Source: Meira nashicola (Eukaryota; Basidiomycota; Exobasidiomycetes; Exobasidiales; Brachybasidiaceae). Taken from it: DNA of 64,000 nt. Shown here piece by piece: positions 39,911-63,294 of the stretch. The stretch lies in assembly GCA_001600355.1 (NCBI GenBank), contig BCJU01000005.1, forward strand, positions 84,775-148,774. Reading direction: 5' to 3'. Made by a program: the position numbers and the translations under genes. How positions within the stretch are numbered: position 1 is the stretch's first letter; each line of letters opens with the position of its first letter. The notes under the pieces are model-generated. The model was not told the DNA's origin. It ran no database searches and saw only the letters and a list, made by a program, of their open reading frames with translations.

Positions 39911-40232
39911 TGACTTTCCTACAAACGCAACCCTAGCATTGGATTATCGAGCGATATACGTCAAATATTGGCATTATACCATTAAATTTCTCAGTCTAGA
40001 ATACGTTCTAGCTATATAATGCTCCCTTGCAAACTTCGCTACACATTTTGATGCTTTTCGAATTGCACTTTAAAAGGCTCCAATCTTATGCAAAACAGAT
40101 ACCTCTTCAACAATCATCGTCTTCCTCGTCAATCCCTTCTCCCGATCTTTTCTCAAGTGGATCGGCTCTAGCAAGTACATATTCCATCCCCTTTCTTTCC
40201 CTATCGCCGCTGGTGCTGGCCCATTGCACACC
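39911..40232. other. DBF4 promoter region
   Basis: The 322 bp before the DBF4-like ATG contain a TATATAA-type box near 40012 and a pyrimidine-rich stretch near 40180. A + frame here overlaps the start of DBF4 but looks like non-coding Ser-rich sequence. Confidence 0.4.
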
Positions 40233-43247: not shown

Positions 43248-43574
43248 AAAAACGGAAACGAAAGATTCAGTCAATAATAATTGCATTTACTAACATACAT
43301 ACGTACGCATCATCATTATTTTCACGCCTCTTTATTCTATCATATATATTCATATCACACACACACACAATCCGTTTCCACACACGAAACCTAGCAATTG
43401 TACCATCTTTGCATTGACTTTTCTCATACCATTCCGTGTCACCTATTGTCATTTACGCAATTCAACATTCATCTTTAGATAATCTGCTTAGATCAATAAA
43501 TGTATTGACGATTTTAAGGTAAGGGAAAACATTTGTACATTTTGGGAGGAAGGGGAAGGGGGAAAAGAGCACGA
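43248..43574. other. Convergent 3' gap between DBF4 and NIP1
   Basis: Only AT-rich 3' flanks and a (CA)7 microsatellite at 43356-43369 are seen. Confidence 0.5.
43356..43369. repeat. (CA)7 microsatellite
   Basis: Seven tandem CA units lie in the convergent gap. Confidence 0.8.
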
Positions 43575-46283: not shown

Positions 46284-46781
46284 TTTTGATTGTTGTTTTG
46301 GAGTGGAATCAAGGGATTATCGATTGACAGATTTCTTGTGATCGCGCTCAGGTTTCCAATCTTCTTTCCATCAATAATAAATTACACGCATCGCGGACGT
46401 TCCATAGAATACAAAGGGCGAAAAATTCTCACGTGTCCTTTACAGAGAAGATCCTTCGCAGCCCTCTGCTGATGCATGCGCGCTAGGCTAATTTGAGAAG
46501 AAATTGAATTGCTGGTCAAAAAAGGGCCATTCTCAACACGTGGTGCGCGTTACCAGTCAAGTTCAATCATTCGGTCGCATTCGGGCTCTGAATCCGTTGC
46601 TTTTTTTGGCTGGTAGACACGCCTGTGCGCGCGCGAAGAATACAAGCATGAAGGCGTTTGAGTGGAAAGCGCCCATAAACGCTAGCTAAACACATAATGA
46701 AATGGTTGTACCTACGTGGTAAAGGTTGATCAGATATTGACTTCCCGTCATCCATCTTTGATCACCTCGACACAGTTCACG
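46284..46781. other. Divergent promoter region, NIP1 / ATP5
   Basis: 498 bp are shared by two housekeeping genes. No further gene is seen; short frames here are GC-biased and unconvincing. Confidence 0.45.
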
Positions 46782-47616
46782 ATGGCTTCACGTTTCACTC
46801 CTCGTCTGTTGCAACAGGTTCGTAATACCGATTCGCGGATTGAATATCGACAAAATAAACGACGAATGCTGACCCACTTTTCCTCCCATCCATTATTTCA
46901 GACCACTCGTGGTTATGCCACACAAGCCGCTGTCCGACCACCGATCGCATTACACGGTTTGGCGGGTAAATATGCATCAAGTGCATTCGTTGCAGCAGCA
47001 CAAAAAGATGCAAAAACATTGGAAAAGTTGGAAGCTGATTTGAAACAAATCAAATCTCTTTTGAGCGCTTCTGGTGCCGAATCGAAAAAGATTAAAGAAT
47101 TCATCGAAAACCCAACTCTTTCTTCAGCTGAAAAGAACAAAGGTTTAAACCAATTGTTGGGCGGTAAGGAAGGTGAAATTACACGGTGAGTAGTGAGGGT
47201 GTCAATTGGATATTGTGGGGAGGAGTAAATGCATTCATTAGCAGGACAATATCTCTAACATATCGGCTTTATTTTCTCATCACAGTAACTTGTTCCAAGC
47301 TATGGCCGAACATGGACGTTTAAGCGAAACTGAACGTATGATTGACGGTTTCGTGCAATTGATGGGTGCTCATCGTGGAGAGGTTGAAGTTGTTGTCACA
47401 AGTGCAACTCCATTGGACAAACAAACTGCATCTCGTTTGGAATCCGCTATCAAACAATCTCAATTTGCCAGCAAAGGAAAGAGCGTTAAAATCACACAAA
47501 AAGTCAACCCAACCATTCAAGGTGGTTTGGTCGTCGATTTCGGAGATCGTTCAGTGGATTTGAGCGTTAGCAGCCGTGTAAACAGACTCAACACTTTGTT
47601 GCAACAAGGTGTTTAA
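46782..47616 (+). CDS. ATP5: ATP synthase subunit 5 (OSCP), two exons
   Basis: OSCP links the peripheral stalk to the F1 head of mitochondrial ATP synthase. Exons are 46782-47185 and 47286-47616. The 100-nt intron has a GTGAGT donor and a CATCACAG acceptor; it is phase 2 and re-forms an Arg codon, giving 244 aa. The N-terminus is a mitochondrial presequence rich in Arg and free of acid until the cleavage region (MASRFTPRLLQQVR). The mature part begins near TRGYATQAAVRPP and contains LHGLAGKYASSAFVAA, SSAEKNKGLNQLL and the C-terminal NPTIQGGLVVDFGDRSVDLS, all classic delta/OSCP segments. ATG at 46782 is preceded by CACG; upstream codons in frame lack an ATG. It is convergent with the NIMA-like kinase. 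Confidence 0.95.
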
Positions 47617-47884
47617 AGTGTGGGATATGCATATTATACTCGACTTAACATCAATCAATGAAGCATAAACTAGATTTGAAGGAACTTGTTCTGGACGATG
47701 AGGTTAAAAAGATATGCCATTGTCACTGGATTGATCTATGCAACAGTGAAAAGGGGGATAAAAAGGAGTGTGAATTGTGTGCTGTTGATGAGAGAGATGA
47801 AAAAATGATGAATGTGTGCTATGAAACAGATGATGGATATAATATAAAAAACGAGCAAAAAAGAATACTGTGAGAAGGGAAAAA

Positions 47885-49951
47885 TTATCCGCGAGATGGG
47901 ATAGCCATTTCACCACTCTTACGACCAAGAGGTGCAATGCCAACCGAGCCAGGCAAAACACTTTGTCGCCTGCGAGGCATTCCACTTAAACGACGAGCAC
48001 GAGCAGCAGAAGAGCTAAAATCATCTTCTTTGCTTGTTGTTGAAGAAGATGCTGGATGTTGTTGTGCGGCAGCAGCTTGTTTGATTGCTTCACGGGCTGC
48101 GCCTGCTGCAGCTGCTCTAGCCATGAAATGAGAATTAGAAATTTGTTCGGGTTTTGTAGTTGTTGTTGTTGTTGAGCGTGAGCCGATTTGATCACCGCTT
48201 GATGCAAAAGGGTCATTGTTGATTCCGCTAAAGTTAGTAATCGTTGCAGGTGCAGAAGAAAGAACTCTTTGAACATCATTTTGTTCCGAGTTGGCAATTG
48301 CTGCACTTGCTGGTGAAGAAGGAGGATGAGAACGTGTTCTTAAGATTTTACGTAAAAATGGAGAAGGTAAAGATTCTTCATCTTGTGCTAAAAGTGAAGC
48401 AACAGTTGGAGGTCCATTTGAAGAAGTATTTTTGGTGAATGGAGTAGAGGCGATTGGACGTAAAACAGAAGCAGAAACAACTTTTGCCGGTGAACTGCGT
48501 CTGCTGCGTAAAGGTGTACTTGCTCTGTTTTCTTTGTTGACGATATCATCGCTGCTACTGCTTCCGCCAACTGCTATCCAAACTGATGCATCTCTCATAG
48601 AAATGTCTGAATTATCAAATGGGTTTGCGCCCATGATCACACAAGGTGAAGAATGCATTCGATTTGCTGATGCTCTTCTTGCTGCTAATCGTCTTAAACC
48701 AGCTGCTGCCACATTGTTATTTTCTGTATTTGATGCCTCTCTTCTTGTAGACCTTTCACTTCTTTGTGTAGTTTGATTGATTGTTTGAGTGGATGCAGAA
48801 GCACTTGATTCGGCTATTTGTGCGTGTAATTTTGCTTCTGCTGCCGTGAGTTCTTGTTCACGTCGTTGGATTGTTTGTTCTCTTGCTTGCATTTGAATGT
48901 TTAATAATGCCATCTCTTCTTCTAATTTTGTAAGTTGTCCTTGTTTTTCTCTTAGAGATGATTCTTTTGCTTCCATTTCTGCCTGTCTTTGATTGAGTTG
49001 TGTTTCACGTTCATCCAAAGCAGCCTCACGTTTGCTCAATGTGATTCGATGATGACCGAGTGTTGTACTATGTTGTTCTTCACGTCTTCTAGAGGCTAAA
49101 CGGATAAGAGGATGTTGCATCAATGTACGTGTTGTAGGTCTCTTTGATGGGTCCAAGCATAACATAGATCGAATCATATCTCCTAAAGTACGGGAATATC
49201 CTCTTGGTAGTTCAGGAACATGTCCCAATTGAATCTTGCGTGTAAGTTCAGCTTGTGTGGTGGCATCAAATGGAGGTCGTAAACCACATAATTCATATGC
49301 AACACAACCTAAAGCCCAAATGTCAGATTTGACATCATAATGAGCGCCAACGGCCAATTCAGGGCTCATATAATAAGGTGTGCCAACATAAGTGCATGCA
49401 AAGCTATGAGCAGCAACTTCTTTTGATAAACCGAAATCTCCAATTTTAACAGTTTGTTCACCATCCAAAAAGATATTTTCCGGCTTAAGATCACGATGCA
49501 AAATTACACGAGAAGGACTTGTTGGAGCATTATGACAAGCATCTAAACCTTGAATCATTTGTGAAAGATAAGAAAGAACAACTTCTTCCGGTAAAAGTCT
49601 CTTTGTCTTTCTGCACTCTTTGATCGTTGAACCTAAATCTCCACCTTGACAATATTCCATGATGATATAGATTATTCCATTCTCACGGTCCACAAAACGT
49701 TCTTCATATCGAACGATGTTTTGGTGAGTGAGCGTTCGTAAGATGTTCACTTCACTAACGATCATCTTTCGATCACGATCTGACATTCGTTCAAAGTGTA
49801 ACTCTTTACGTGCGAAAATCTTTCCATCTGTTAATCTCTTCACTTTGCGAATTACACCAAACGTTCCTGATCCGATAATATCTAATGCTTCGTATGCGTC
49901 CAAGTTGGAAGGAGATGCAGCACCTGATTCGGTGCGAGAGATAGGCGGCAT
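47885..49951 (-). CDS. NIMA-family mitotic serine/threonine kinase
   Basis: The 688-aa protein has an N-terminal kinase domain: GSGTFGVIRK at residues 27-36, Lys49 in FARKEL, HRDLKPENIFLD (His152, Asp154), GDFGLSKE (Asp172) and GTPYYMSPELA. The SDRDRKMIVSEVNILRTLTH and MEYCQGGDLGSTIKECRKTK strings are typical of NIMA/Fin1/Kin3 and human Nek2. A coiled coil (about 295-385) follows the catalytic domain as in NIMA and Nek2, then a disordered Ser/Ala-rich tail. NIMA kinases promote mitotic entry, spindle-pole function and chromosome condensation. The start is a true ATG. It is a single exon, convergent with ATP5, and divergent from what lies to its right by a 1.3-kb gap. Confidence 0.92.
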   Translation of the reverse strand: MPPISRTESGAASPSNLDAYEALDIIGSGTFGVIRKVKRLTDGKIFARKELHFERMSDRDRKMIVSEVNILRTLTHQNIVRYEERFVDRENGIIYIIMEYCQGGDLGSTIKECRKTKRLLPEEVVLSYLSQMIQGLDACHNAPTSPSRVILHRDLKPENIFLDGEQTVKIGDFGLSKEVAAHSFACTYVGTPYYMSPELAVGAHYDVKSDIWALGCVAYELCGLRPPFDATTQAELTRKIQLGHVPELPRGYSRTLGDMIRSMLCLDPSKRPTTRTLMQHPLIRLASRRREEQHSTTLGHHRITLSKREAALDERETQLNQRQAEMEAKESSLREKQGQLTKLEEEMALLNIQMQAREQTIQRREQELTAAEAKLHAQIAESSASASTQTINQTTQRSERSTRREASNTENNNVAAAGLRRLAARRASANRMHSSPCVIMGANPFDNSDISMRDASVWIAVGGSSSSDDIVNKENRASTPLRSRRSSPAKVVSASVLRPIASTPFTKNTSSNGPPTVASLLAQDEESLPSPFLRKILRTRSHPPSSPASAAIANSEQNDVQRVLSSAPATITNFSGINNDPFASSGDQIGSRSTTTTTTKPEQISNSHFMARAAAAGAAREAIKQAAAAQQHPASSSTTSKEDDFSSSAARARRLSGMPRRRQSVLPGSVGIAPLGRKSGEMAIPSRG

Positions 49952-51217
49952 GGTGACAAAATGTATGCGGTCCGAATGAATGCTTGATTGAAAGAAAGGC
50001 GGCCCTTTTTGTAGGAGGCTTTCTTGAACCTAGCCGTCGAATGATATTAGGTAAAAAATTGTTGATGGTGATGATGAGAAAAGACGAATGTTAAAACAGA
50101 CCTTACAATTCCAAAAGCCTGAGTTGAATTTGGAAACCGGTGGAGGTAGACTGCCAAATGGAAATTGGAAAAAAGTTTAAATTGCCGAATTAATTACCGG
50201 GCGTAGAAGATTGACACACTTTTTTTTGTTACGTCTGTTGCTTTACGTCTACCGAATGTATGCTTGAATGTGTCTGAGATGTCGTACGTACTTGAACCCC
50301 AGCCTGCAGATTTCTTATCGGGCAAGAATGACGTACTCGTCTTTTGAACAACTACCACCAAGTTTTTTTATTGTGTTAAAAATTGGCAAGTTTGTAGAAT
50401 TAGTGTTGTGTACCTTACTTTCGAATGAGGCTTATCGTGCTTTTGACTTGCTTGAGTGTTGAGGAGATGGAAGTATGTATGAACGGATGAACATATGATC
50501 TATCCCAATCGATAGGATATCTCAAACCTTAAAGCAATGTATGCGTTCACTTTATGCTTGACTTGCCTTTTTGTATGTGACATTCAATGAACAACTTCCT
50601 TCTCCGTTTGTATGCCTGAGCAAGAAATAAGTTTCGGACCGAATGCATGAAAACAAAGACCGAAACAGTGCCCGCCAAGAAGTGTGATGTAGAATATCAA
50701 ATACACTTATGTGCGTGTATGCACAATTAAGAAGAAAAGTAGTGGCTTTAAGTGTAACTTCCAAAAGTAACACAAACGCACAAAATCACTCTCTTGGAAA
50801 TCACAACCTAAATGTTACATCTATCCGGCTTTCCTAGTTGGGTTAGATTCTCGTTCAATAAACCTTACGCCCGCCTATACGCGTATGCTGTGTGATTTCT
50901 CCACATTTTAAAACCGGTCAAATTTTTGCAAGTCACACAACCAGTACATATGTAGATAGGGCGGTGTCATTACGCGTGTTTTGCGAAGAACAACACTGCC
51001 TAACAAAAAGACCAACACTAATGTACGCACACACGGATGCAAATCGATCAACAACCTCTGTCCCTGAAAATATAGTCTAAAAACCGTTGAAAAAGACGTC
51101 ATGATTTTTGATTGTTTCGATTGAAAAGATAAATGACAATAAGATCGATAAAAAGTTTAAAGTTACATCATTGCTATGTTTGTTTGTTTCTATCGTACGT
51201 ACGAGATCGAAAGTTAA
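49952..51217. other. 1.3-kb gap between NIMA-like kinase and alpha/beta hydrolase genes
   Basis: No supported gene is seen. It contains the kinase promoter (near 49952-50250, with a T9 run at 50219) and AT-rich 3' flank of the hydrolase. Confidence 0.45.
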
Positions 51218-53950
51218 TCATTCACTCTCACTACTATCATCAAGAGCAGAATTAGTTGTTTGACTAGTGTGTTTTGAATGTGATCCATCTTGCACCTCTG
51301 CATTTCCACCAATATATCCTAAAGCATCCAATCTTCTACGTTCTAATAAAGAGCTCTCTTTTACTAAACTACCTTCTCCTCCTCCTACAGAAGGGGGTTG
51401 ATGATCATTTGATCTGCGTCTTCTGATCGGAACGGATGGTGGAGGAAGGAGCATAGATTGGGTATCATGCACATTCGCAGCGGCTGCAGCAGCATTTGCG
51501 CGAACCTTGCTTTCGACAGTACTGAAGCTATTTGGTCGTGATCGAATTGCCTGTTCTTGAATCTTGTTGATCAGATTAGACGGAGGTCGTGATGGCGAAA
51601 AACGTGGTGAAGTGGTAGGTGAACCTCTAGAAATTAGATTAGATTGTCTTCCTGACGCACTCGCTTGTGAATCTTGACTTTGCATTGATGGTGATCGTCG
51701 TGATTTTGGCGTGAATGTTAAAGCTTCGGTATCATCTTCTTCGTCTGATGAAGATGGAGGAGGTTGAAGAACGCCTAGCTTAGGACGAGCTGGTACAGAT
51801 TGTGATTTGACTGGAGGTTGAGGTTTTTCCTCCAATGAAGAAGATGAAGAAGGCGTTGAAACATCTTCACCCTGTTGTGCCCTTTGCAATCGAGCTGATT
51901 CGCTTCTTCTTTGTTCAGGTGTAAGAGCATGCTCTGTATAATCATCAAATGCGTCTGCACTCCATTGAGCTAAAAAGGAGATCACCTTTTTCACTTCAGG
52001 CAAAAGAGCTGACATTTGTAAATATCCATGAGACCATCCTTCAATGATACGCATTTGAACCCAATCATCCACATCTTCCTCTTCTTCCACCATTGTACTG
52101 CCAGACATGCGCAATTGTTCTCCAAACCGTGCACCGCGCTTCTTCAATGCCATCTGTCTTGCCAATTTTGCTTGTCGAATTCTTCCTGCCATTACCACTG
52201 TATCATCACAGATTGGATCTTTTTCACCACAAGTGAACAAGACTGGAGGAAAATCGGCTAGATACTTTGCTGGAGCTACGATAGGTGAAAGGTAATAATC
52301 ATTATCGAAATCCGGTTGTCTCCTTGGTCCAATATAGAGAATTGCCATTGCACGCATCATACTTTGTGTTAAGATGCGATCTTGGAAATACCCCGCCATA
52401 CTTGTCATAGTTAAACGTGTGTTCACCGTTGAGCTTTGAGCTGCCTTCTTTTCATTTAACTCTAAATCCATCTTTTCCGTTGCTGCTTGCAATTCACGTT
52501 GTTGAGCAAGCCTTTGTTGATGTTCTGGATCGTTCATAGTAGTTGCTTGTCTCTCCATTTCATCCGATTCAATTCGTCCAATCCAACTCGTCTGTGGAGT
52601 AACATCTGGTGATGATTCAGCTTCTGCCATCCTTGCCCTTTCGGCCAAATGCATTTCCGCTTGATTAGCAAGAGATGTATAGCTCTTGTTCGGTTTTATT
52701 TTTTGTTGATTTGGCGTTTGTGAACCGCTTGCTCTTGTTTTACCTCTCAATCGATTTCGTGCTGATAAATTTGAATCGACGCTATCCTTACCTTCATTCT
52801 TTCCTCTCATCGGTTCGATTAACTGTAGATTAACCTCACTTTGCGATCGTAAAACATTCAAATGATCAGGTTTCATCCAACTGGTAAATGCGAAATTGGT
52901 AGCAGGATAATTGAGCACGAGTGCAATCGGTCTTGGTAAAGGCGGTGGTGTACTTCCAGGCCCACCAGCAGCTTTGGCAGCATAAGCTGATTTGATATGT
53001 GCCTGTGGATATTCTAAAATCTTCAACATTACTCCAAGTGCTAAATTGCCACCTGCACTATCACCGGTCAAAATTGTTCGAAACGTTGAACGACCTGACA
53101 TGCCCAATACACTACCCTTGCACTCGTGTAAGCTGCGATAAAGATCAAAGCATTCCTCCAAAGCGTAAGGGTAAGGGTATTCGGGTGCTTTACAGTAGTC
53201 CACAGCCAGAATCGGTCGTTTATGTTCTGCTGCCAATTGCCTTAGTCGGTCTTCATGATGCTCTGGGCGCATACTAACGAAACCTCCTCCTACAAAATCA
53301 ATGATCAATTCGTCTTCTTCGCGTAAGAAACGCAATGGTTTATGATAGAACAACATTGCTCGGATAGGCCTTTTGTTGTGCGATCCTATACTTGGTCTAG
53401 GAAGGAGAATGGATTCTGCTATTGATAATCGATGAAACGAAAGCCAAGTGACAGCTCGAATATATGGATTAGAAGTCTTGTTCCATGTCGCACGTAAAAA
53501 GTCGACAGTACAAAAAGCACGATATTTGCGTAACTTTTCATCTGCTTCGTTGGCATAGATGACATAGTATAAAGACATTAACACAGAAGCGATATCTCGT
53601 AACCATTGTGGTCTAATAGCCATCGCACTGGCAAAGCCAGCATCTAAAGCAGTATTGATCCAAGTAGCACGATAGAATGAACGTGAATACATTCTTGCCA
53701 AAGGTTCAGGAGCTCCGAATCCAGCTACTGCATCTAAATGACGAATTGCATAAACGGAAGTTAAAGCGAAAACGAAAATTTGCCAAGGCGTAAATCGTTT
53801 AGCATATGCATTCATTCGTCTTACAAATGGAATTTTGCCTGGACCATCACGAGGACCTATACGTAATATCCAACCCCAAAATGATAAAACCAATAAAACT
53901 TGAACTCTTTTCAATCGAGTAGAAGGTCTACCCAAAAGATGATCAATCAT
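51218..53950 (-). CDS. Large hormone-sensitive-lipase-like alpha/beta hydrolase
   Basis: The 910-aa protein has hydrophobic stretches at residues 14-30, 56-70 and 100-132 that could anchor it to a membrane, then an alpha/beta-hydrolase fold. The nucleophile elbow is LTGDSAGGN (Ser298). The expected acid is Asp578 (FTCGEKDPICDD) and the His is His641 (EGWSHGY). The oxyanion-hole motif is DFVGGGFV, with Val in place of the first His of HGGG. A disordered insert of about 160 residues (370-530) splits the fold before the acid. A long Ser/Pro-rich tail follows. The family cleaves esters such as acylglycerols or sterol esters; the actual substrate is unknown. It is a single exon with a true ATG. 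Confidence 0.85.
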   Translation of the reverse strand: MIDHLLGRPSTRLKRVQVLLVLSFWGWILRIGPRDGPGKIPFVRRMNAYAKRFTPWQIFVFALTSVYAIRHLDAVAGFGAPEPLARMYSRSFYRATWINTALDAGFASAMAIRPQWLRDIASVLMSLYYVIYANEADEKLRKYRAFCTVDFLRATWNKTSNPYIRAVTWLSFHRLSIAESILLPRPSIGSHNKRPIRAMLFYHKPLRFLREEDELIIDFVGGGFVSMRPEHHEDRLRQLAAEHKRPILAVDYCKAPEYPYPYALEECFDLYRSLHECKGSVLGMSGRSTFRTILTGDSAGGNLALGVMLKILEYPQAHIKSAYAAKAAGGPGSTPPPLPRPIALVLNYPATNFAFTSWMKPDHLNVLRSQSEVNLQLIEPMRGKNEGKDSVDSNLSARNRLRGKTRASGSQTPNQQKIKPNKSYTSLANQAEMHLAERARMAEAESSPDVTPQTSWIGRIESDEMERQATTMNDPEHQQRLAQQRELQAATEKMDLELNEKKAAQSSTVNTRLTMTSMAGYFQDRILTQSMMRAMAILYIGPRRQPDFDNDYYLSPIVAPAKYLADFPPVLFTCGEKDPICDDTVVMAGRIRQAKLARQMALKKRGARFGEQLRMSGSTMVEEEEDVDDWVQMRIIEGWSHGYLQMSALLPEVKKVISFLAQWSADAFDDYTEHALTPEQRRSESARLQRAQQGEDVSTPSSSSSLEEKPQPPVKSQSVPARPKLGVLQPPPSSSDEEDDTEALTFTPKSRRSPSMQSQDSQASASGRQSNLISRGSPTTSPRFSPSRPPSNLINKIQEQAIRSRPNSFSTVESKVRANAAAAAANVHDTQSMLLPPPSVPIRRRRSNDHQPPSVGGGEGSLVKESSLLERRRLDALGYIGGNAEVQDGSHSKHTSQTTNSALDDSSESE

Positions 53951-54774
53951 TTTTGACAGAAGTACATCAACGAAAAGTACATCAAACGATTTGGTGCTTT
54001 GACAATGCTGGAAATACGATGCTCCTCCCCGATTTACGCTTCCTATTTGCTTGCTTGAGAATTAGTATACATGAATTTGACGAAGAAACTTGATGAGCTG
54101 CTCTACAGATGGTATCAGTGATGGTGGTAAGAGAGATATTTCATTCATCTTTTTCCATACCCTCTTCTTTTGGCTTTAGCTTTCACGAGGTACCCCGTGC
54201 TGATAACGATGCACGTCTCGGGCGATTTATTGAGTTTATGCGTGTGTGTATGTGTGTAAAGTGAATACAAAAGTCGCTGCCTTGTTAAGAATTCTCCTAA
54301 GCGGTATCTCCTTCACATTGGCATGCATGCCGCAACTTTTAACGCTTAAGTTGCCTTGCTGTGCCTGATCCAAAGTCCACAACTATTGGCAGCAAATCGT
54401 GGCTAAGTTTAGCGCGTGTGAGCGTGTTTGAACCTCTAAATAGCTTAGCGTGTGATTGTGTGTAGGAAATAAAGCTTTGAAGGAGACAATTATATAATCA
54501 AGCTATCTAGATTTCGATACCTGGTATTTTCGTTCTCAACTTTATCCTTGATCGTTTACACCGAGCAGAATATTGTATCGAAATATGCTTTCACTCCTTT
54601 TCGTAATCCCTTTATTCTCTAGTAATTAATATTATTATAAAATAGAGGGGATAAGAAAGCCCCTTTCATCTTTAAGTCTTTTTTTATATAAATATTTTAG
54701 TCATCAATATATAATCTTGTCTTATAAAACCCATACATTTTTCATAAATAATCTTTATTCTACATAGAGCATCA
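53951..54774. other. Divergent gap before the RNase H array
   Basis: It contains the hydrolase promoter and, from about 54600, strongly AT-rich DNA with TTATAAAA near 54722, which fits a promoter of the first array gene. A GT-rich stretch lies at 54240-54260. Confidence 0.45.
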
Positions 54775-55083
54775 ATGAAGAACAACAACACTAACTTCTA
54801 CGCTGTACGAAATGGAAGAAATCCGGGCATCTACAATACGAAAGAAGATTGTGAAAGGCAAATAAACGGATTCAGTGGTGCAGAATATCAAACATGTCAA
54901 ACATGGCAAGAAGCACGGAATTATGTTTTAAGAATTATGATTAACCCAATCTCTCAATCTTATAAGAATGTTGCAAAGTATCGTGATGAAAGCGAAATTA
55001 TTAAAAGGATAAGTCAACCTCCAAGAACAAATAAAAGAAAGTTAAGAGAAGATGATAAAGAAGATCGGATAAAAAAATTATAA
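54775..55083 (+). CDS. RNase H1-type hybrid-binding domain protein without RNase H domain
   Basis: The 102-aa product starts with a domain of about 45 residues matching the RNase H1 hybrid-binding domain: NFYAVRNGRNPGIYNTKEDC, then FSGAEYQTCQTWQEARNYV. That domain holds RNA/DNA hybrids and dsRNA. Here two binding positions are eroded: the Trp of the usual TW-EC is Lys (TKEDC), and the FKKF/YKKF strand is YQTC. Nothing of the RNase H domain follows, only a Lys/Arg-rich tail (TNKRKLREDDKEDRIKKL). The ATG context ATCAATGAAGAA is nearly the same as that of the gene at 56705, a sign of recent shared ancestry. It may be a decayed duplicate or a small nucleic-acid binder. Confidence 0.75.
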   Translation: MKNNNTNFYAVRNGRNPGIYNTKEDCERQINGFSGAEYQTCQTWQEARNYVLRIMINPISQSYKNVAKYRDESEIIKRISQPPRTNKRKLREDDKEDRIKKL

Positions 55084-55311
55084 AAAGTAGTCATCAATCA
55101 ATCAAACCGAAGAAGTAAGATTGATTTCTATCCTTTGTTTATACTCATTTTAAATTATCTTACGGCTCCGTTACGCTTGGTCTCCGCGCCGTTACACGGT
55201 CCCTCTTATTCATTCTCAATAGAATATGTCTTTACCAAATGAAGTTATTCTAGTAGAAATGGTTACTTTCTTTTCCACCATACTTATGATAAAACATAAT
55301 ACTTCCTTCAA

Positions 55312-56214
55312 ATGGGAAAAGGTGGTTTTTACGCTGTTCGTAAAGGTAAATTACCTGGAGTATATACTACGTGGGGCGAATGTGAAGCACAAGTGAGAGG
55401 ATTTGGAGGTGCGAGATATAAAAAGTTTTCAACGTTTGAAGAAGCGCGAAGATTTGTTGAAGAAACTGGCACTCGTATGGCAAAACCTTCAGGAGGATTT
55501 CGTTATAACGCTTGTGAACCTGATAAACTTGATTTTAGTCGTAGCAGATATTATCAAGCCGTAGAAGAAAACAATTCAAGCGGAAGAAGTGATGTTCCTT
55601 TTTATCAACAATCAAGAAAAAGAGAAGAACTTCCTCAAATTGAAACACCAACCAGTCCACCAATGAAACGAATTTGCTCCGATACAGAATCACAGGAGGA
55701 GGAAGTAGAAGTTTATATAAAAGTGATAATTATTAACAAAGATGAAGCAAAATGGAAGTTATGTTTTCCCGAATACGTAAAAGATTCAAAAGAATATTGT
55801 AGCAGAGGTGGAATAGAGCGTAATACACGTCGAGCAGGTTTAATGGCAATCCTTCGTGCAATAGAATCTCATCCTAAAGATCAAAAAGATATTCAACTTC
55901 ATATCTATACAAATAATGAAATTTCCGTTAAATGTATAAAAACTTGGAATGGCGAACTTCAAGGTGATGAATATATCAATTTAACAGAAGAAGGAGATTT
56001 GATCAAAAAATGTGGTGAAAAAATACAAAATTGTATTCGTTTACCAATCTTGGAATACGTCAAATCTGATTATGAAGAATCGATTGAAGAAGGTTCTGAT
56101 CAAACAAATCAACGTGATGCCGGCTGGGGTGACTTTGAACCATTTTTATCTGATGATGAAGAATTTAATCAAATATATTTCAACGACAATAAAGGGAAGG
56201 GAAAGCAGCTCTGA
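55312..56214 (+). CDS. RNase H1 paralogue: intact hybrid-binding domain, catalytically dead RNase H domain
   Basis: The 300-aa product begins with a well-preserved hybrid-binding domain (GFYAVRKGKLPGVYTTWGEC, then GGARYKKFSTFEEARRFV), with the binding Trp and the two Lys kept. A disordered linker leads to a remnant RNase H fold from about residue 135. Every catalytic position is lost: the first strand is YIKVIIINKDEAKW with no YTDG, RAELMAI has become RAGLMAI (Glu to Gly), TDSQ has become TNNE (Asp to Asn), and the GHS/ADxLA end is gone. The LRAIESHPKD and LHIYTNN strings still show the fold. The frame is intact over 300 codons, so the protein seems to be retained. An acidic tail ends it. Confidence 0.85.
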   Translation: MGKGGFYAVRKGKLPGVYTTWGECEAQVRGFGGARYKKFSTFEEARRFVEETGTRMAKPSGGFRYNACEPDKLDFSRSRYYQAVEENNSSGRSDVPFYQQSRKREELPQIETPTSPPMKRICSDTESQEEEVEVYIKVIIINKDEAKWKLCFPEYVKDSKEYCSRGGIERNTRRAGLMAILRAIESHPKDQKDIQLHIYTNNEISVKCIKTWNGELQGDEYINLTEEGDLIKKCGEKIQNCIRLPILEYVKSDYEESIEEGSDQTNQRDAGWGDFEPFLSDDEEFNQIYFNDNKGKGKQL

Positions 56215-56704
56215 GCACAAGTATTAAATATATGGAAGCTATTATTCCGAGACATATGAGGCGGAGAATGAAAGGGACAATTTTTTAAATATTTTCGTTC
56301 GGCTCCTTGTAAGACGCAATATGCTATTTATCTATAATCAGGCTGTATTTGAATACGTTTAACATATTCTCTATAGAATATTGTGGGCTGAGGTTTGCCG
56401 ATAATGAGCTTTAAAATTTGGAAAAAAGATTAGCCTTGATACATATAATATTTAAATTTCCGATATCGGTAAAATATAATTATACGCTTTTGTAATAAAG
56501 GATCGACTCAGCATTTTTATCAAATAAGCAAAACTCAGTAGGGCATCCTTTTAAAGGAAATTATAAATTGTATAAATATAACTGAGCTTTTCTTCATCTT
56601 AATGTTTACCCTCTACTTTTCCTTTAATTCACCACTTTATAATCCTATCTTCACTTCTATTTTTTCAAGAAATATTTTCTATCAATTTATAAAGGCAATC
56701 ATCA
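56215..56704. other. AT-rich spacer inside the RNase H array
   Basis: No gene is seen. TATA-like ATTATAAATTGTATAAATATA lies near 56560-56581, about 130 bp before the next ATG. Confidence 0.5.
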
Positions 56705-57412
56705 ATGAAGAAAAAAGGTGGTTTCTACAGTGTTCGTATTGGCCGTGCCCCTGGAGTTTATACTTCTTGGGAAGAATGTGAAAAGCATGTAAGCCATTTT
56801 AGTGGTGCAGAATTCAAGAAATTCAAATCAAAAGAAGAAGCAGAGAACTTTGTTAACTTGAAAAACCAAAATTCAAACTGTAGTTCATCTTCACCTACTA
56901 TCGAAGATGCTAAATACGCCGAAAAAGCTACTTTTACTGATAAACAAAAAAGTAATGATAACAGTGGTCAATCTAGTACTCAAGATAAGCTTCCTTCAGT
57001 ATCTTCATCTATTCGCGAGATTGAGGTATTGATTGAAGTATTCAAGTGTGGCGAAGAATGGCTTTGGCATGCATCATTTATCATCTGCGAGATTACTAAT
57101 AAGGAATGGACTATGCAATCTATACGAGAGGATGAAACAGCTGCTGGTTTTACGGCGGTTCTTCGTGCTTTAGAAGCTTGTCCTGATAAAGAAGCTCGTC
57201 TTCGTTTTAATTCTCGTAGAGAATCTCGTAATCTTGCAAAATATCAAAACGTCTTGATGTACGATAAACCAGAAATTCTCGGCAAGCATGAAGACTTATA
57301 TCAAAAATGTAAGCAAGAGATGCGTAAGTACAGTGATATGCCAAAGTTCGATTGGAACGATCCGATGAAACGTATGAATCAGCAAAGAAAGATTAATTTT
57401 TTTAATCTCTAG
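56705..57412 (+). CDS. RNase H1 paralogue: intact hybrid-binding domain, dead RNase H domain (second copy)
   Basis: The 235-aa product has a good hybrid-binding domain (GFYSVRIGRAPGVYTSWEEC, then GAEFKKFKSKEEAENFV), a disordered linker of about 55 residues, and a strongly decayed RNase H domain from about residue 100. The equivalent of RAELMAIIRAI is AAGFTAVLRAL (Glu to Gly), and the equivalent of IFTDSQ is RFNSRR (Asp to Asn). The first Asp and the C-terminal His/Asp motifs are missing. Like its left neighbour it has Gly where the catalytic Glu should be, which suggests the two arose from one already inactive ancestor. A role as an RNA/DNA-hybrid or dsRNA binder without cleavage is inferred. 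Confidence 0.85.
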   Translation: MKKKGGFYSVRIGRAPGVYTSWEECEKHVSHFSGAEFKKFKSKEEAENFVNLKNQNSNCSSSSPTIEDAKYAEKATFTDKQKSNDNSGQSSTQDKLPSVSSSIREIEVLIEVFKCGEEWLWHASFIICEITNKEWTMQSIREDETAAGFTAVLRALEACPDKEARLRFNSRRESRNLAKYQNVLMYDKPEILGKHEDLYQKCKQEMRKYSDMPKFDWNDPMKRMNQQRKINFFNL

Positions 57413-57889
57413 AAACATTTCTACTTTCTTTGTATATCTACCAAATGAATTTCATTTTCTCTAAATCATCATAATTCTATTCTATGATAAGATGTTGATT
57501 ATATAAGTTACTATTATAGGCAGACAAATAGTGTTTGTGGCTGAATTTAGCGTGCTTATAAAAAGAATGTTTTAGGCTGAGCCAGCGCCTACGCTTAGGC
57601 CTCTTTCAAAAAATTAATATTCTTCAGCCTTTCGTTTGCCTGTTTGACTTTCCTAATACCATCCTTTCAACATATTTATAAGTCAAAGGTGAACAAAGTT
57701 GTTTGAACAGCTTGGAGAAGTCACCTGCAATTTCATTCAAGAAAAGTGCGCTCCTTCTTTGCTCAAATCGGCATTGGCCGTTCGGTCAGAAGTAGAGGTG
57801 GCATTTGGGTGGGCAAGAATAACATATTCGGATTAGCGAAATATTTCAAACGTATAACTGAATCTTCTCAACAAGATCAGCAACAATCG
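57413..57889. other. Spacer and 5' leader of the canonical RNase H1 gene
   Basis: The last 183 nt (57707-57889) form an open frame joined to the RNase H1 ATG without any ATG of their own. They encode an Arg/Ser/Phe-rich, nearly acid-free peptide; see the findings. The rest is AT-rich with no gene. Confidence 0.5.
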
Positions 57890-58891
57890 ATGGCAAAAGG
57901 AACAAAGTTTTATGCTGTTCGTGTAGGAAAGCAACCTGGAGTATATGCTACGTGGGACGAATGTGAAACTCAAGTGAAAGGCTTTGGAGGTGCAATCTAT
58001 AAGAAGTTTACCACGCAACAAGAAGCAAATGCATTCATAGCGGGAGGCAGTAGCGAATCAAGCTCGAAAAAAACCCGAAACTCTTCCAATGAAGCTCTCA
58101 ATGGATCTTCATTCGCATATATTGATACCTCTTCCGGTTTAATTGTGAGCCAAAGTGAACATTCTAACGGATCTTTAAACGGCACTTCTTCATCAAAGCG
58201 AAAGAGTATCGAAAGTGAAAGACCTTTGACCAAAAAGCCTCGTCTGCCTTATCCAAAGTCAAGCATGCCAGATCCTGTTACCCCTGATGGCGTTCGTGTG
58301 ATCCCAGTATATACAGATGGAGCAGCTTCTGCTAACGGAAAAGGAGCCAGAGCCAAAGCAGGATGGGGTGTATACTTTCCGGACTATAACTATTTGAGTG
58401 AAAGTTGTAGGCTTGATGGATCAGAACAAACGAACAATAGAGCAGAATTGATGGCAATCATTCGTGCGATTCAACTCAATCCCGATCCAAAAGCACAATT
58501 ACACATTTTCACCGATAGTCAATATTCCATCAATTGTTTAACTGATTGGCAATTCAAATGGAGAAGAAATAATTGGAAACGTGGAAAAGATGAAGATGTT
58601 AAGAATAAGGATCTGATCAGATTATGCGAATTTGAGATACGCAAATGCGCCCATAGACCAATCATCACATACGTAAAAGGTCATTCATCCAACAAAGGCA
58701 ATAAAGAAGCCGATCGATTAGCAGTAATCGGTGCTGCAATGCCTTCTATACCTCAACCTGATTGGAAGAATCACGAGCCACCTCCTTCTGACGATGAAGA
58801 TTACGCTCGACAACAAGCTGCAGCATTTTGGCGAAAAGCGGGATTTTCCAAAGAAGATTCATTGAAGAAAGCTGGAAACGGGCAAGATTGA
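57890..58891 (+). CDS. RNH1: Canonical RNase H1 (ribonuclease HI)
   Basis: The 333-aa enzyme cuts the RNA strand of RNA/DNA hybrids, removing R-loops and primers. The hybrid-binding domain is at residues 4-50 (KFYAVRVGKQPGVYATWDEC, then GAIYKKFTTQQEANAFI). After a disordered, Ser-rich linker with basic patches, the RNase H domain holds all catalytic residues: YTDGA, NRAELMAIIRAI, FTDSQYS, VKGHSSNKGNKEADRLA (D-E-D plus His and the last Asp). The basic handle is present (DWQFKWRRNNWKRGKDEDV). ATG at 57890 is the first in frame. The frame continues upstream for 61 codons as a presequence-like peptide, so an additional mitochondrial form started at a non-AUG codon is possible. This is presumably the parent copy of the array. 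Confidence 0.95.
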   Translation: MAKGTKFYAVRVGKQPGVYATWDECETQVKGFGGAIYKKFTTQQEANAFIAGGSSESSSKKTRNSSNEALNGSSFAYIDTSSGLIVSQSEHSNGSLNGTSSSKRKSIESERPLTKKPRLPYPKSSMPDPVTPDGVRVIPVYTDGAASANGKGARAKAGWGVYFPDYNYLSESCRLDGSEQTNNRAELMAIIRAIQLNPDPKAQLHIFTDSQYSINCLTDWQFKWRRNNWKRGKDEDVKNKDLIRLCEFEIRKCAHRPIITYVKGHSSNKGNKEADRLAVIGAAMPSIPQPDWKNHEPPPSDDEDYARQQAAAFWRKAGFSKEDSLKKAGNGQD

Positions 58892-59141
58892 ATTAGACGA
58901 TTTATGCAATACGCTCTATCTTTATACCCCACTCATCAATTGTACAATATCATTCATTTTAATCTTGTAGATCATTCGAGTAGATGTTTAATCGCGACTT
59001 TGTGATATGTTGCGCTTTACTCGGGTCTATCACATGCACAAAGGGGAGGGCGCAATAAGTCCGAATAAGATTAATATGCGACAAATCACATTGTCATATC
59101 ACTTCCGATGCACAAATGGGGCGGAGCCGTTTGATTAATAA

Positions 59142-59888
59142 ATGGCAAGCATTTTTTCATTCTCTCTTACGATCATCATCATCGTCAACATCATTCTTGT
59201 TGTTCACACAATGAAACAAAACAAGGGAAAAAAACGCAAATATATCGAAGTGGAAGATGATGATGATGAACAGCAAGATGCCAACAAAGGAATCAGTATG
59301 CGAAGGCGAGATTCAGGAATTGTAGAAAAAGAAGAAGAAGAAAATTGTCTGATTATCGCTTATACTGATGGATCATTTCGAGGTCCAAAAGATGAATCTG
59401 AATGTTCATGTTTAAATAGAGCTGGATATGGAATTTATTTTCCAACATATAAAATACCTAAAAAATCAAAATCACAAGAATTATTTTTTTGGGGTCGTGT
59501 ACCGGGTAAAATTCAAAATTCAAGAAGAGCAGAAATTTATGCCGTTATACGTGCAATTCAACTTTGTCCAGATAAAAATGCAAAATTACACATTTTCACA
59601 GATTACAAAACTACAACAATGATGAAAACTGATTTTCGTTCTTGGTCAATCAAAGGTACTTCTGATATGGACCTTTGGATAACATTACGTCGTGAAATGT
59701 ACCTTCGTAAACACGTTCCAACTTTAAGTCATGTTAAAGGACATTCGGGTAATCATGGAAATAATAAGGCAGATGAATATGCAAAGAAAGGTACTCAACT
59801 TAAATGTGAAAAAGATGAATGTAGAATAACGATGAAGCAAATTTCAACAAAGACAACAAAGATGGTAGAAGTTTTAGAGGCGTTATAG
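59142..59888 (+). CDS. RNase H-only paralogue with hydrophobic N-terminus and Cys signature (catalytic residues intact)
   Basis: The 248-aa product lacks the hybrid-binding domain. From ATG at 59142 it begins with a hydrophobic run (IFSFSLTIIIIVNIILVV) like a signal anchor. A second ATG at 59211, with A at -3, would give a soluble form starting MKQNKGKKRK. The RNase H domain keeps the full set: YTDGSF, RRAEIYAVIRAIQ, IFTDYK, VKGHSGNHGNNKADEYA. Compared with the canonical copy, the segment from TD to GHS is 50 instead of 59 residues because the basic handle is missing. A C-x-C pair precedes RAGYGIYF and a C-x4-C pair (CEKDEC) follows the last helix. Activity is likely, but substrate grip must differ. 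Confidence 0.85.
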   Translation: MASIFSFSLTIIIIVNIILVVHTMKQNKGKKRKYIEVEDDDDEQQDANKGISMRRRDSGIVEKEEEENCLIIAYTDGSFRGPKDESECSCLNRAGYGIYFPTYKIPKKSKSQELFFWGRVPGKIQNSRRAEIYAVIRAIQLCPDKNAKLHIFTDYKTTTMMKTDFRSWSIKGTSDMDLWITLRREMYLRKHVPTLSHVKGHSGNHGNNKADEYAKKGTQLKCEKDECRITMKQISTKTTKMVEVLEAL

Positions 59889-60232
59889 TTATTTGTCATT
59901 CAGTCTCGATTCCGTCTATCAACTGTATTATTTAATGACTGCTTTTGCTTCATTTTGTTCTCATAATGTATATATTATTTATGCTTCATTCATCGTCATC
60001 GTTTTTTTGTCATGTTATAACCAGTAGGGTATTTATCGGCACCGTTTCATAATAGCAATCATACCAAATGGCGTAAAACAAGAACATCTACCCGTTCGAT
60101 CTTTCTTAAAGTCACAATCGGTATCATTCTTGAAGATATAAAAATCATACATCATTAAAGAACATCTCCCTTCACTTTCCTCCATCTTAAACGATACCTT
60201 GTCCAGCTTATTCTGAACACATAATTACCACA
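59889..60232. other. Spacer inside the RNase H array
   Basis: AT-rich, with GATATAAAAATCATAC near 60136, a likely TATA element about 95 bp before the next ATG. No gene is seen. Confidence 0.5.
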
Positions 60233-60793
60233 ATGGGAAGGAGAAGCAGATGTGATTCTGATGATGAAGAAGATCTCACAAACAATAAAACGAAAAGATT
60301 TAAAGGTCAAAATCGAAAGGCTATTATTAAAGTGTACGTTGATGGATCTTTTTGGAAAAAAGGATTAAATAAAGGAGAAGCAAAAGGATTACTATGTAAT
60401 TGTACTCAAAGAGCAGGTTATGGTATTTATTTACCCGGATGTACGAATGATAACCGTTGTGGAAGAGCACCAAAGAAGATTAAAAAAAGTAGTGATGCTG
60501 AATTTTATGCAATCACTCAAGCTATTCAATTATGTCGTACTAGAAAAGTTCAAGTACACATCTTTACAGATTGTCTTACGGCAGTTCATATTAGTGAAAA
60601 ATATCAATTTTGGTTAAAAGATGGAAAAAAACGAAAAGAACATATCAAAAAGATGTTTGAAGCAATGCAATCGTGCACACACCTACCTAAATTACTCTTT
60701 GTTCGTGGTCATTCAGGTGATAAAGGTAATGATATGGCAGACGGATTAGCTAAACAAGGTATGCGAAGAAGGTGTTCGGGAAATTGCGTTTGA
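60233..60793 (+). CDS. RNase H-only paralogue with four-Cys signature (catalytic residues intact)
   Basis: The 186-aa product has a short, basic, acidic-patched N-terminus (MGRRSRCDSDDEEDL) that could be nuclear, then an RNase H domain with all key residues: YVDGSF, SSDAEFYAITQAIQ, IFTDCLT, VRGHSGDKGNDMADGLA. The handle loop is absent, with exactly the same 50-residue TD-to-GHS spacing as its two sisters. A C-x-C pair (LLCNC) stands just before QRAGYGIYLP, and a C-x3-C pair (CSGNC) ends the protein after GMRRR. No hybrid-binding domain is present. It is a single exon with a true ATG. Confidence 0.87.
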   Translation: MGRRSRCDSDDEEDLTNNKTKRFKGQNRKAIIKVYVDGSFWKKGLNKGEAKGLLCNCTQRAGYGIYLPGCTNDNRCGRAPKKIKKSSDAEFYAITQAIQLCRTRKVQVHIFTDCLTAVHISEKYQFWLKDGKKRKEHIKKMFEAMQSCTHLPKLLFVRGHSGDKGNDMADGLAKQGMRRRCSGNCV

Positions 60794-61075
60794 ATTGGGA
60801 TATTTTGTATGTAGAATGTAACCGACTGTATTTATTTTTTTATTTTCAATTTCTTCTTGACGTCATACAATCAGTAACGGCGCCGTCAATAATATCATTT
60901 CGCCTCATTTAAAAATATGAATTGATTTTTGAGAAGGACTTTAAAGCAGATTTTTATCTTATCCTTAAGCCATCTTCATCCTTTATAAAGAAACTTTAGC
61001 CCTAAATCATAATAGCTCTTAAAAATAGACAAGATTAAAGGATTTTCGGGGTTTAAAGAAAGGTTCTATACATTG

Positions 61076-61549
61076 ATGTCGAATCCTTATGTTCCGGTAT
61101 ACGTTGATGGATCTTATTGGGAACAAGGTTATGGAATTCCATCAGATCTACAATGCGCTTGCAATATTAGGGCAGGCTATGGAGTTTATTTTCCGACTCT
61201 CAATAGATCATTTTATGGTCGAGCACCAGATTACGTTGAAACAAATAATGACGCTGAAATATATGCTATTATTCAAGCAATGAGACATTACGGAAACATT
61301 AATACAAGATTATACATTTTCACTGATTCGCAAGATTCGATTAGAATATGCGGTCAATATAACGATTGGTTGAGCGATAGATTTTTGTTTAGTCGTTTAC
61401 ATCAAGAACTTTTTCAAGAAATGAATAATCTCAATCAATTACCTCGTTTATATTACGTTCGTGCCCATTCAAATAGTCAAGGTAACAATATTGCCAATTC
61501 ATTAGCAAGACAAGGTATGCGATCAAGTTGTGGCGGATATTGCGCCTAA
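61076..61549 (+). CDS. RNase H-only paralogue, minimal, last catalytic Asp replaced by Asn
   Basis: The 157-aa product is almost only an RNase H domain: YVDGSYW at residue 8, NNDAEIYAIIQAM, IFTDSQDS, VRAHSNSQGNNIANSLARQGM. Three acidic residues and the His remain, but the last Asp (D134 in E. coli RNase HI) is Asn. E. coli variants with Asn at this position keep much of their activity, so this copy may still cut. It shares the C-x-C pair before IRAGYGVYFP (QCACN), the C-x3-C end (CGGYC) and the missing handle with its sisters. ATG at 61076 is used; the codon before it is TTG. Confidence 0.87.
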   Translation: MSNPYVPVYVDGSYWEQGYGIPSDLQCACNIRAGYGVYFPTLNRSFYGRAPDYVETNNDAEIYAIIQAMRHYGNINTRLYIFTDSQDSIRICGQYNDWLSDRFLFSRLHQELFQEMNNLNQLPRLYYVRAHSNSQGNNIANSLARQGMRSSCGGYCA

Positions 61550-62048
61550 AATAATAAATCTAAGAAAATAATTCCCTTTTCCAAACTATCGGTTCCGCCA
61601 ATCATATATTTTTCCTCACATTTTATTAATAAAGGCGCCGAATTTTACCATGTATCTTTAAAGAAAAGGGTGATAATCTTGATAAATAGTGTTTTGAATC
61701 TCAATTCTTAAAGAATAGTTCATAACAATGATATGCATGAATAGTTGGCAGAAAGGTTGTATGAAGAAATAAAAGAACGACAATGTTTACCACTCATATT
61801 CGTTTTGACGCAAATATGCACTGATGGCAATCGTAACAAATATTTCACACACACTACCTCGTCCTAAACAATGAGTTCACTCGTACCAATCATTCGGTTC
61901 ATGGCTTGACAAAATATGTATACTGATATTGATTGACTGTACATGATCGTGTGAGACAAGCCGGCTCAAATTTTGAAAAGGGGGGTTGGGGATATGGGGA
62001 AAAAGCGAAACGGCGAGGGCGAAAGGGGAGAAAACATCATCATCCCAA
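61550..62048. other. Intergenic, 3' of the RNase H array and 3' of RPS2
   Basis: Convergent 3' flanks. No gene is seen. A G-rich run lies at 61980-61990. Confidence 0.45.
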
Positions 62049-62822
62049 TTAGGCAATGGTCTTCTTAGCAGAGCGAGCCAAATGTGCGGCATGATCTGCG
62101 TAAAGTGTCGCGGAAGGTGCAACTTCGGGCCACAAGGTTGGTTCCAAAATGGCGTATGTCTTGGCCAAGGCAATGTAGGTGGCTTGGATGAAGTTTCCTT
62201 GGGTGGCAGTTTGACCACTTGCTTGAGAGTAACAGTCTTCAATACCGGCCAATTGTAACATTCTCTTGGCAGCAGGAGCGGCAACGATACCTGTACCACG
62301 AGGAGCGGGAACCAAACGACACATGACGGAAGCACACTTGGCACTGGTCTTCATGGGAACGGTGTGAGGTTCACCAAGATTTGAGCCCCAGTATCCACGT
62401 CTAATTGGAACAACATTCAATTTGGCGATGTTGATAGCAGCACGGATGGCGGTAGCAACTTCTTTGGCACACTTGACACCCAAACCGACATGTCCATCGA
62501 AATCACCAACGGCAACGAAAGCCTTGAAACGGGTACGTTGACCGGCACGTGTTTGCTTTTGAACGGGCATGATCTTCATAACTTCGTCCTTCAATTTGGG
62601 CAAGAGGATGTCGATAACTTGGTACTCTTTGATTGGCAAGGAGAACAAGTAGATTTCTTCGATAGACTTAATCTTTCCGTCTTTTACCAAACGACCGACA
62701 GATGTAACTGGGGTCCACTCTTCCTTTTCGTCTTTACGTCCACCACGGCGAGGTCCACGGCCACGTCCACCACGACCACGTCCACCGAAACCACCACGAC
62801 CACGAGGAGCTGCGTCAGCCAT
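62049..62822 (-). CDS. RPS2: 40S ribosomal protein uS5 (Rps2)
   Basis: The 257-aa protein has the eukaryotic Arg/Gly-rich N-terminus ([18 protein letters not shown]), then the S5 double-stranded-RNA-like domain ([20 protein letters not shown] and [20 protein letters not shown]) and the S5 C-terminal domain ([20 protein letters not shown]). uS5 lies at the mRNA entry tunnel of the 40S subunit and guards decoding accuracy. The length is normal. The codon choice is less AT-rich than in neighbours, as expected for a highly expressed gene. It is a single exon with a true ATG. Confidence 0.97.
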
Positions 62823-63294
62823 TATTATATATTAATTTGTTGAAAAGTGTCGAGAAGGTTGATGATGATAGTGACAAATCTGGATAGGAAGCTTTGAAGT
62901 TTTGACTGAGAATATGCGCGCAGCGCTTAGTGAATAAGCTTCCAGCCGAGTACTGCGCGTCAAGACAGTGTGCTTTAAGGCACATTTCCCCTTGTTTCAA
63001 TGCCGCGGGCTGCATGTCACGTGTATTAACTGACAATTTTCTGAACCAGCTCAATTCAGATTGCATTTTACACGTGCGCGTGAGATTTGAGATTGTTCTC
63101 AAAACGCGTAATTTAACTTGCTTAGCGCGCTTCTACGATGCACACATATTGGTGCACTCTAGTCCATGTACCTGACAGATCTGATCACTATGTACTACAA
63201 TCATCTTATTTAGTACCTCTGAATCTTTCGGTCACGATCGAACTCAGCCAATTGTGTATCACGCTATCCCTTATGAGCACAAATAAATCAAAAT
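62823..63294. other. Divergent promoter region, RPS2 / right-edge gene
   Basis: 472 bp with no gene seen. It contains short GC-rich elements (TGCGCGCAGCGC near 62914, CACGTGTA near 63018). Confidence 0.45.

Follow-up and report, generated by a model that had tools for sequence, protein, structure and literature searches.

RNase H1 degrades the RNA strand of RNA-DNA hybrids and is usually encoded by a single gene, with the hybrid-binding domain (HBD) and the RNase H domain in one chain. In Caenorhabditis elegans, RNase H1 is encoded by four genes, of which three lack the HBD, and their developmental expression is gene-specific (PMC1950709). Prokaryotic type 1 RNases H that lack the HBD and have a reduced or absent handle are represented by Group A (PMC1950709) and by the enzymes of Halobacterium and Sulfolobus (PMC9719913). 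Drosophila RNase H1 carries a second HBD (PMC7657459), and R-loops are mapped with HBD-based sensors or with RNase H1 that has been made catalytically dead (PMC10639055).

The window analyzed here is a 64,000-nucleotide stretch of the Meira nashicola genome, in which 6.8 kb at positions 54775–61549 hold seven uninterrupted frames on the + strand, as found by an open reading frame scan. PF01693 (RNase H1 N-terminal domain, HBD) is found in copies 1–4 and PF00075 (RNase_H) in copies 4–7, with E values of 1.1e-12 to 7.7e-31 that all pass Pfam's curated thresholds. Frames and domains agree with the original observation of seven RNase H1-related genes, and the left-to-right sorting is as first described, because Pfam places the HBD and the RNase_H domain in these two overlapping sets. 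None of the seven copies contains an in-frame stop, whereas the two alternative frames of that strand hold 3–38 stops each. A search of the whole 17.9-Mb genome revealed no RNase_H domain over the cut-off outside the array. Instead of the usual single eukaryotic gene, one complete enzyme is accompanied here by six further paralogues with one half or a degenerate half of RNase H1. No title describing such an array was found among the best matches of a full-text literature search, and the first reading likewise knew of none.

The complete enzyme expected in the middle of the array is encoded by copy 4 (57890–58891, + strand; 333 aa), comprising the HBD, linker, RNase H domain and handle. PF01693 (E 5.2e-21) and PF00075 (E 7.7e-31) are located in one chain, and the catalytic set Asp-Glu-Asp-His-Asp is fully present, as in 24/24 other RNases H of the alignment. 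By its domains and catalytic set this protein is a eukaryotic RNase H1, similar to human RNASEH1 in both domains, the five catalytic residues and the handle, and it would perform ordinary RNase H1 work in the nucleus and perhaps in mitochondria. Upstream, the frame of copy 4 stays open but contains no ATG (57707–57889, + strand); this extension is conserved in two relatives (identity 30/48 and 18/41) and appears to be basic and presequence-like. The GTG at 57746, used as the start in P0001, was rejected as bacterial-style gene calling, though the extension itself is conserved.

The copies to the left of this enzyme were first described as having the binding domain without catalysis. This describes copy 1 (54775–55083, + strand; 102 aa; Pfam E 3.8e-15), the sole binding-domain-only member of the array; copies 2 and 3 each carry in addition a degenerate RNase H domain, missed by Pfam and visible in the alignment. 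In copy 2 (55312–56214, + strand; 300 aa), the HBD is followed by a catalytically dead RNase H domain, the fold of which was also recovered in the predicted structure, and by a conserved acidic C-terminal motif. The catalytic first Asp, Glu and His are lost in all three copy 2 proteins (that of the window and its orthologues P0149 and P0150), the fourth Asp still aligns in 3/3, and the second Asp is kept in one of the three. Between species the dead domain is 62–70% identical, vs. 31–45% for the linker. Judged from sequence and model, copy 2 is a catalytically dead RNase H1 with the RNase H fold kept. Copy 3 (56705–57412, + strand; 235 aa), characterized by Pfam, alignment, tree and residue check, combines the HBD with a strongly degenerate RNase H domain. 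Its branch in the RNase H tree is very long (3.3 changes per column), and its tree position depends on this branch. The HBD tree, based on 44 columns, has no starred branches and separated nothing.

The term “hybrid readers”, originally applied to the left-hand genes, suits copies 2 and 3 as far as their sequences indicate, and fails for copy 1, in which the key binding residues are gone: Lys, Gln, and Thr occupy the positions of human W43, K59, and K60. The HBD of copy 2 in the window retains the Trp and both Lys residues, and P0150, the copy 2 protein of a relative, has Gln at the K59 position. Copies 2 and 3 could bind hybrids (or dsRNA) without cutting them, and either shield them or compete with copy 4, acting by analogy much like laboratory catalytically dead RNase H1. 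As in the dead RNase H1 and HBD sensors (PMC10639055), the HBD is kept and catalysis is apparently lost; however, the laboratory tool was engineered by a point change, while copy 2, a putative binder, arose naturally, is old and has undergone further remodelling. A change in the amount of hybrid binding per enzyme during evolution is also seen in Drosophila RNase H1 (PMC7657459), but there it took place within one chain, whereas in the array it involves separate genes.

Orthologues of copies 2, 5, 6, and 7 are present in Meira miltonrushii and those of copies 2, 4, 6, and 7 in a second relative; within either set, the entries agree in the length given for the longest contig. No orthologue was found for copies 1 and 3 among the matches listed (best 120 of 184), for copy 4 in M. 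miltonrushii among the matches listed (best 120 of 594), or for copy 5 in the second relative (197-kb contig) among the matches listed. The check for a lack of the array in relatives did not refute the prediction, because a protein-by-protein comparison shows that they have orthologues of copies 2, 4, 5, 6, and 7, altered or intact as in the window. Since these orthologues come from independent assemblies, an assembly or gene-model artefact is refuted; the copies also differ strongly in sequence, no point in support of an artefact was found, and its probability is negligible. The proposal that a duplicated RNase H1 had its two domains divided is supported. The best reading of the array is a subfunctionalised RNase H1 family. 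We consider it fairly probable that, of these seven tandem RNase H1 paralogues, with copies 2, 5, 6, and 7 similarly altered in related Exobasidiales, specialised copies share out hybrid binding and RNA cutting.

The extra copies could instead be decaying duplicates, tandem spares drifting to loss and in frame by chance. This may well hold for copies 1 and 3, given the loss of key binding residues in the former, the strong divergence of the latter, and the failure to find an orthologue of either among the listed matches. Copies 2, 5, 6, and 7 are, however, older than the species splits and retain catalytic residues, cysteines or the dead fold, and no copy has acquired an in-frame stop. To judge from these features, decay of spare copies does not account for the array as a whole, and such an origin for it is very unlikely.

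The right-hand part of the array comprises copies 5 (59211–59888, + strand; 225 aa; orthologues P0128, P0129, and P0130), 6 (60233–60793, + strand; 186 aa; P0124, P0125, and P0127) and 7 (61076–61549, + strand; 157 aa; P0126, P0131, P0132, and P0133), none of which has a PF01693 match in Pfam. The start of copy 5 is likely at 59211, because the proteins of three relatives begin near there, as does the database entry for this very protein; the alternative start at 59142, which adds a hydrophobic leader, was rejected. The designation “RNA cutters” is appropriate as a predicted role for copies 5 and 6, in which the RNase H fold retains the full set of five catalytic residues, and is questionable for copy 7, changed at a catalytic position. 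The fourth catalytic Asp of the alignment, which we take to be Asp134 of E. coli, is absent in 5/5 copy 7 proteins, being replaced by Asn in the window copy and by His in the other four; in one of the five, the first catalytic Asp is also replaced by Glu. Asp134 helps coordinate one metal (PMC8900815), and a literature search found no relevant paper on the activity of D134H or D134N. Copy 7 may cut with altered metal use.

The cysteine set, the shortened handle and the separate lineage of the right-hand copies were missed in the first reading. The hairpin that follows the first catalytic Asp contains a CxC motif in 13/13 copy 5–7 proteins, and this motif is present in 0/180 other matches of the census; the first tail Cys is present in all 13 and the second in 11 of them. 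In the window, the CxC codons are located on the + strand at 59403–59411 (copy 5), 60395–60403 (copy 6), and 61154–61162 (copy 7), with tail cysteines at 59805–59822, 60773–60787, and 61529–61543, respectively. The handle is shortened in all three copies in the alignment. Copies 5 and 6 could cut RNA reached via the remodelled hairpin, steadied by zinc-binding or disulphide-forming cysteines, in place of the HBD. The lack of the HBD and the reduced handle resemble the prokaryotic handle-less enzymes described in PMC1950709 and PMC9719913; unlike these, copies 5–7 carry the CxC and tail cysteines and group with fungal RNase H1, in a tree built without prokaryotic enzymes.

Each of copies 5, 6, and 7 forms a supported cross-species clade in the RNase H tree, and on this sequence evidence they are a lineage of their own. 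With long branches removed, copy 4 and Exobasidium RNase H1 form a group that excludes the HBD-less lineage, although a tree constrained to unite this lineage with copy 4 is not rejected by the AU test (p 0.353). No Exobasidium protein occurs among the 27 matches to the HBD-less copies. The RNase H domains of the window and the second relative are 92% identical for copy 4, vs. 64% for copy 6, 59% for copy 2, and 51% for copy 7; as judged by these identities, evolution has been slower in copy 4 than in the derived copies. The dS values are near saturation in the array analysis, which was counted against the best explanation.

Faster evolution of copies 6, 2, and 7 would also be expected if the array had switched substrate, its products being nucleases and binders for dsRNA or retroelement hybrids, for example against mycoviruses or transposons, and not for ordinary R-loops. 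The HBD binds dsRNA as well (PMC1950709), and a Sulfolobus tokodaii type 1 RNase H cuts it (PMC9719913). Human RNase H1 is, however, the best fit of the predicted structure of copy 6, and no link to defence was found in the literature search or among neighbouring genes; those flanking the array are an alpha/beta hydrolase gene and a gene of the ribosomal protein S5 family. A substrate switch appears quite unlikely.

Another explanation is that the copies were subfunctionalised in time or place and serve different compartments or life stages, with no division into readers and cutters. The N-terminal regions of copies 4, 5, 6, and 7 are unlike each other, and the C. elegans family, with its expression pattern, offers a precedent. 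It likewise combines a complete enzyme with HBD-less catalytic paralogues in one genome, but dead HBD-bearing copies and a tandem array are not mentioned in the passage that describes it (PMC1950709), on which the comparison is based. Time or place alone would leave unexplained both the dead copy with its HBD and dead fold and the cysteines common to every HBD-less copy, and we regard this explanation as unlikely.

A candidate cis element is shared by four array gaps. It was located by motif scan on the + strand as CGGCTCCGTT 149 bp before copy 2 (55163–55172), CGGAGCCGTT 89 bp before copy 5 (59122–59131) and CGGCACCGTT 196 bp before copy 6 (60037–60046); a fourth site, with no strand assigned, lies 198 bp ahead of copy 7, around CGGCGCCG (60876–60887). 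The palindrome is absent from the gaps before copies 1, 3, and 4. The form CGGNNCCG was spotted by eye in the array gaps and ranked afterwards, being first of 832 three-base palindrome/spacer types in these gaps. Its count of six in the whole window is not unusual (reached by 19/100 shuffles); five of the six sites lie within or just past the array, one of the five, at 61590, being downstream of copy 7. In the genome, the count for CGGNNCCG is 1229 vs. 896. The form CGGCNCCGTT is matched exactly at 101 genomic sites vs. 31 for the reversed control, and at three in the array vs. 0.04 expected. With one mismatch allowed, all seven window matches fall within the array or next to it; two of them overlap, and one is located 82 bp beyond copy 7. 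This window total is not unusual (17/100 shuffles). These statistics are post hoc, because the motif was refined on the array itself. Eight frames near the first eight other sites (L016–L023, two of them being one place) belong to five unrelated Pfam families or, in three cases, have no match, and share no theme. It is conceivable, though improbable, that the array is a natural reader/cutter system, in which dead copies would mark or shield hybrids and HBD-less cysteine-switch RNases H sharing the cis element would be directed in trans. The support for this in-trans reading consists of the gene clustering and the post hoc candidate cis element.

Overall, in the subfunctionalised family favoured here, the two halves of RNase H1 occur as separate genes beside the parent enzyme, and several are kept across species. 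Work on the role of the HBD apart from cutting has relied for the most part on sensors and on enzymes engineered to be dead. Because the halves are separate genes across species, deletion of single members could separate hybrid binding from cutting in a living cell. The cysteine set adjoins the active site and, if it is zinc-binding or redox-sensing, would represent a new means of controlling an RNase H.

The array at 54775–61549 on the + strand comprises seven uninterrupted frames (copies 1–7, left to right) and lies on a 679-kb contig of the 17.9-Mb genome. Pfam matches over the curated cut-offs assign the N-terminal hybrid-binding domain (HBD) of RNase H1 to copies 1–4 and the RNase H domain to copies 4–7, copy 4 being the complete enzyme. 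The array is AT-rich, with a GC content of 34–38% (54001–62000, 2-kb steps) versus 37–46% in the rest of the window, and is bordered by ordinary-looking genes: those for a DBF4-like protein, eIF3c, a protein kinase and an alpha/beta hydrolase on the left (40074–54061) and a ribosomal protein S5-family gene on the right (62049–62831). The absence of introns from the copies fits the intron-poor status given for Meira miltonrushii in PMC8476143. The tandem split array of the original prediction is thus borne out by the frames and Pfam domains, and is firmer than could be known from the window alone, since relatives also have altered copies.

A whole-genome search found five RNase_H matches. Four exceed the cut-off, all inside the array; the fifth, weak and below it, falls within a frame of 619 aa on contig 2 (L005:1276–3135, − strand). 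Of the six binding-domain matches, four belong to the array and one is weak. The remaining one exceeds the cut-off at 33.6 bits and lies in a 448-aa frame on contig 1 (L010:463–1809, + strand) that gives no match to RNase H. An RNase H2-type gene is present away from the array.

In copy 2 of three species, the first catalytic Asp is replaced by Lys and the Glu by Gly, the fourth catalytic position lacks His, and the second Asp is replaced by Asn in two of the three and retained in one. The last Asp aligns in all three, that of the window's copy lying where predicted pLDDT is below 50. The predicted model (mean pLDDT 69.4; RNase H core blocks 62–94) has strands and helices through the fifth strand, with the final helix absent. 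This model matches E. coli RNase HI, at a best E of 1.1e-05, and, as a separate match, the human HBD (TM 0.92, 1.0 Å). Across species the dead domain is 62–70% identical, the HBD 57–65%, the linker 31–45% and the C-terminal GWGDFEPFLSDDE stretch 75–95%; copy 4 has a related stretch at its end, W-K-N-H-E-P-P-P-S-D-D-E. We read this dead domain as retained for some non-cutting role.

Equivalents of human W43, K59 and K60 are present in copies 2 and 3 of the window, while P0150, the copy 2 protein of a relative, has Gln at the K59 position. In copy 1 these positions are occupied by Lys, Gln and Thr; among 16 aligned rows this copy alone lacks the Trp, and K59 or K60 varies in some complete enzymes too. 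Since changes at W43 or K59/K60 are described as compromising hybrid binding (PMC10639055), copy 1, judged by its residues, probably does not serve as an ordinary hybrid reader.

Altered copies recur in relatives, as the original prediction had proposed to check. A profile of copies 5–7 found 27 proteins, 13 of them far ahead (E 2.3e-52 or better versus 2.8e-11), including the window's own three and three from Meira miltonrushii (Brachybasidiaceae, Exobasidiales). Copy 2 orthologues occur in Meira and another assembly (profile of copies 1–3, best 120 of 184 matches). The Meira proteins of copies 2, 5, 6 and 7 share one longest-contig figure (1,658,990), as do those of copies 2, 4, 6 and 7 in a second relative (196,855); each set of four therefore very probably lies on a single contig. 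With copy 4 as query, the top named match is Exobasidium rhododendri, two further proteins have 73% and 60% identity, and no Meira orthologue appears (best 120 of 594 matches). Among the matches listed, copies 1 and 3 have no orthologue, and copy 5 has none from the 197-kb contig of the second relative. P0148, near-identical to copy 2 (55312–56214), is catalogued as a protein of the fern Adiantum nelumboides (3.75-Mb contig) and looks like fungal DNA inside a plant assembly.

A tree of 44 RNase H domains resolves one cross-species clade for each of copies 5, 6 and 7 (support 100/97, 100/97 and 99/91), so these genes had already diverged from one another when the species parted. Copy 6 pairs with copy 7 (100/97), and copy 5 is sister to that pair (100/99). 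Copies 2 and 3 group together (98/95), adjoining copy 4; copy 2 by itself has support of only 92/48, and copy 3, whose branch reaches 3.3 changes per column, is uncertainly placed. The HBD-less clade persists when long branches are removed (100/99), and for that tree the AU test does not reject a direct union of this clade with copy 4 (p 0.353). At least two duplication rounds probably occurred, one giving the HBD-less lineage and another the dead HBD-bearing copies.

Pairwise dN/dS is below 1 in 19 of 21 comparisons among the window's copies, namely those with finite dS. It spans 0.21–0.28 across 5 of the 6 binding-domain pairs and 0.26–0.77 across 14 of the 15 RNase H-domain pairs. Because dS is near saturation, these values hint only weakly at selection. 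A CGG-NN-CCG palindrome, a candidate cis element, lies in the gaps ahead of copies 2, 5, 6 and 7, 89–198 bp before the start codon. Its fuller form, picked post hoc, is threefold more frequent genome-wide than the reversed control, with 3 of 101 exact matches inside the array; frames near the first eight of its other genomic sites revealed no common theme.

Among the titles listed in open-access full-text searches, none concerns a tandem split RNase H1 array. Caenorhabditis elegans has four RNase H1 genes, three without an HBD, and archaeal enzymes without the handle had weak activity, according to PMC1950709; PMC9719913 describes type 1 RNases H including a handle-less and a dsRNA-cutting enzyme. 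The proposed division of RNase H1 into binding and cutting proteins probably holds for copies 2, 4, 5 and 6, may hold for copy 3 and is doubtful for copies 1 and 7; the copies may cooperate in trans.
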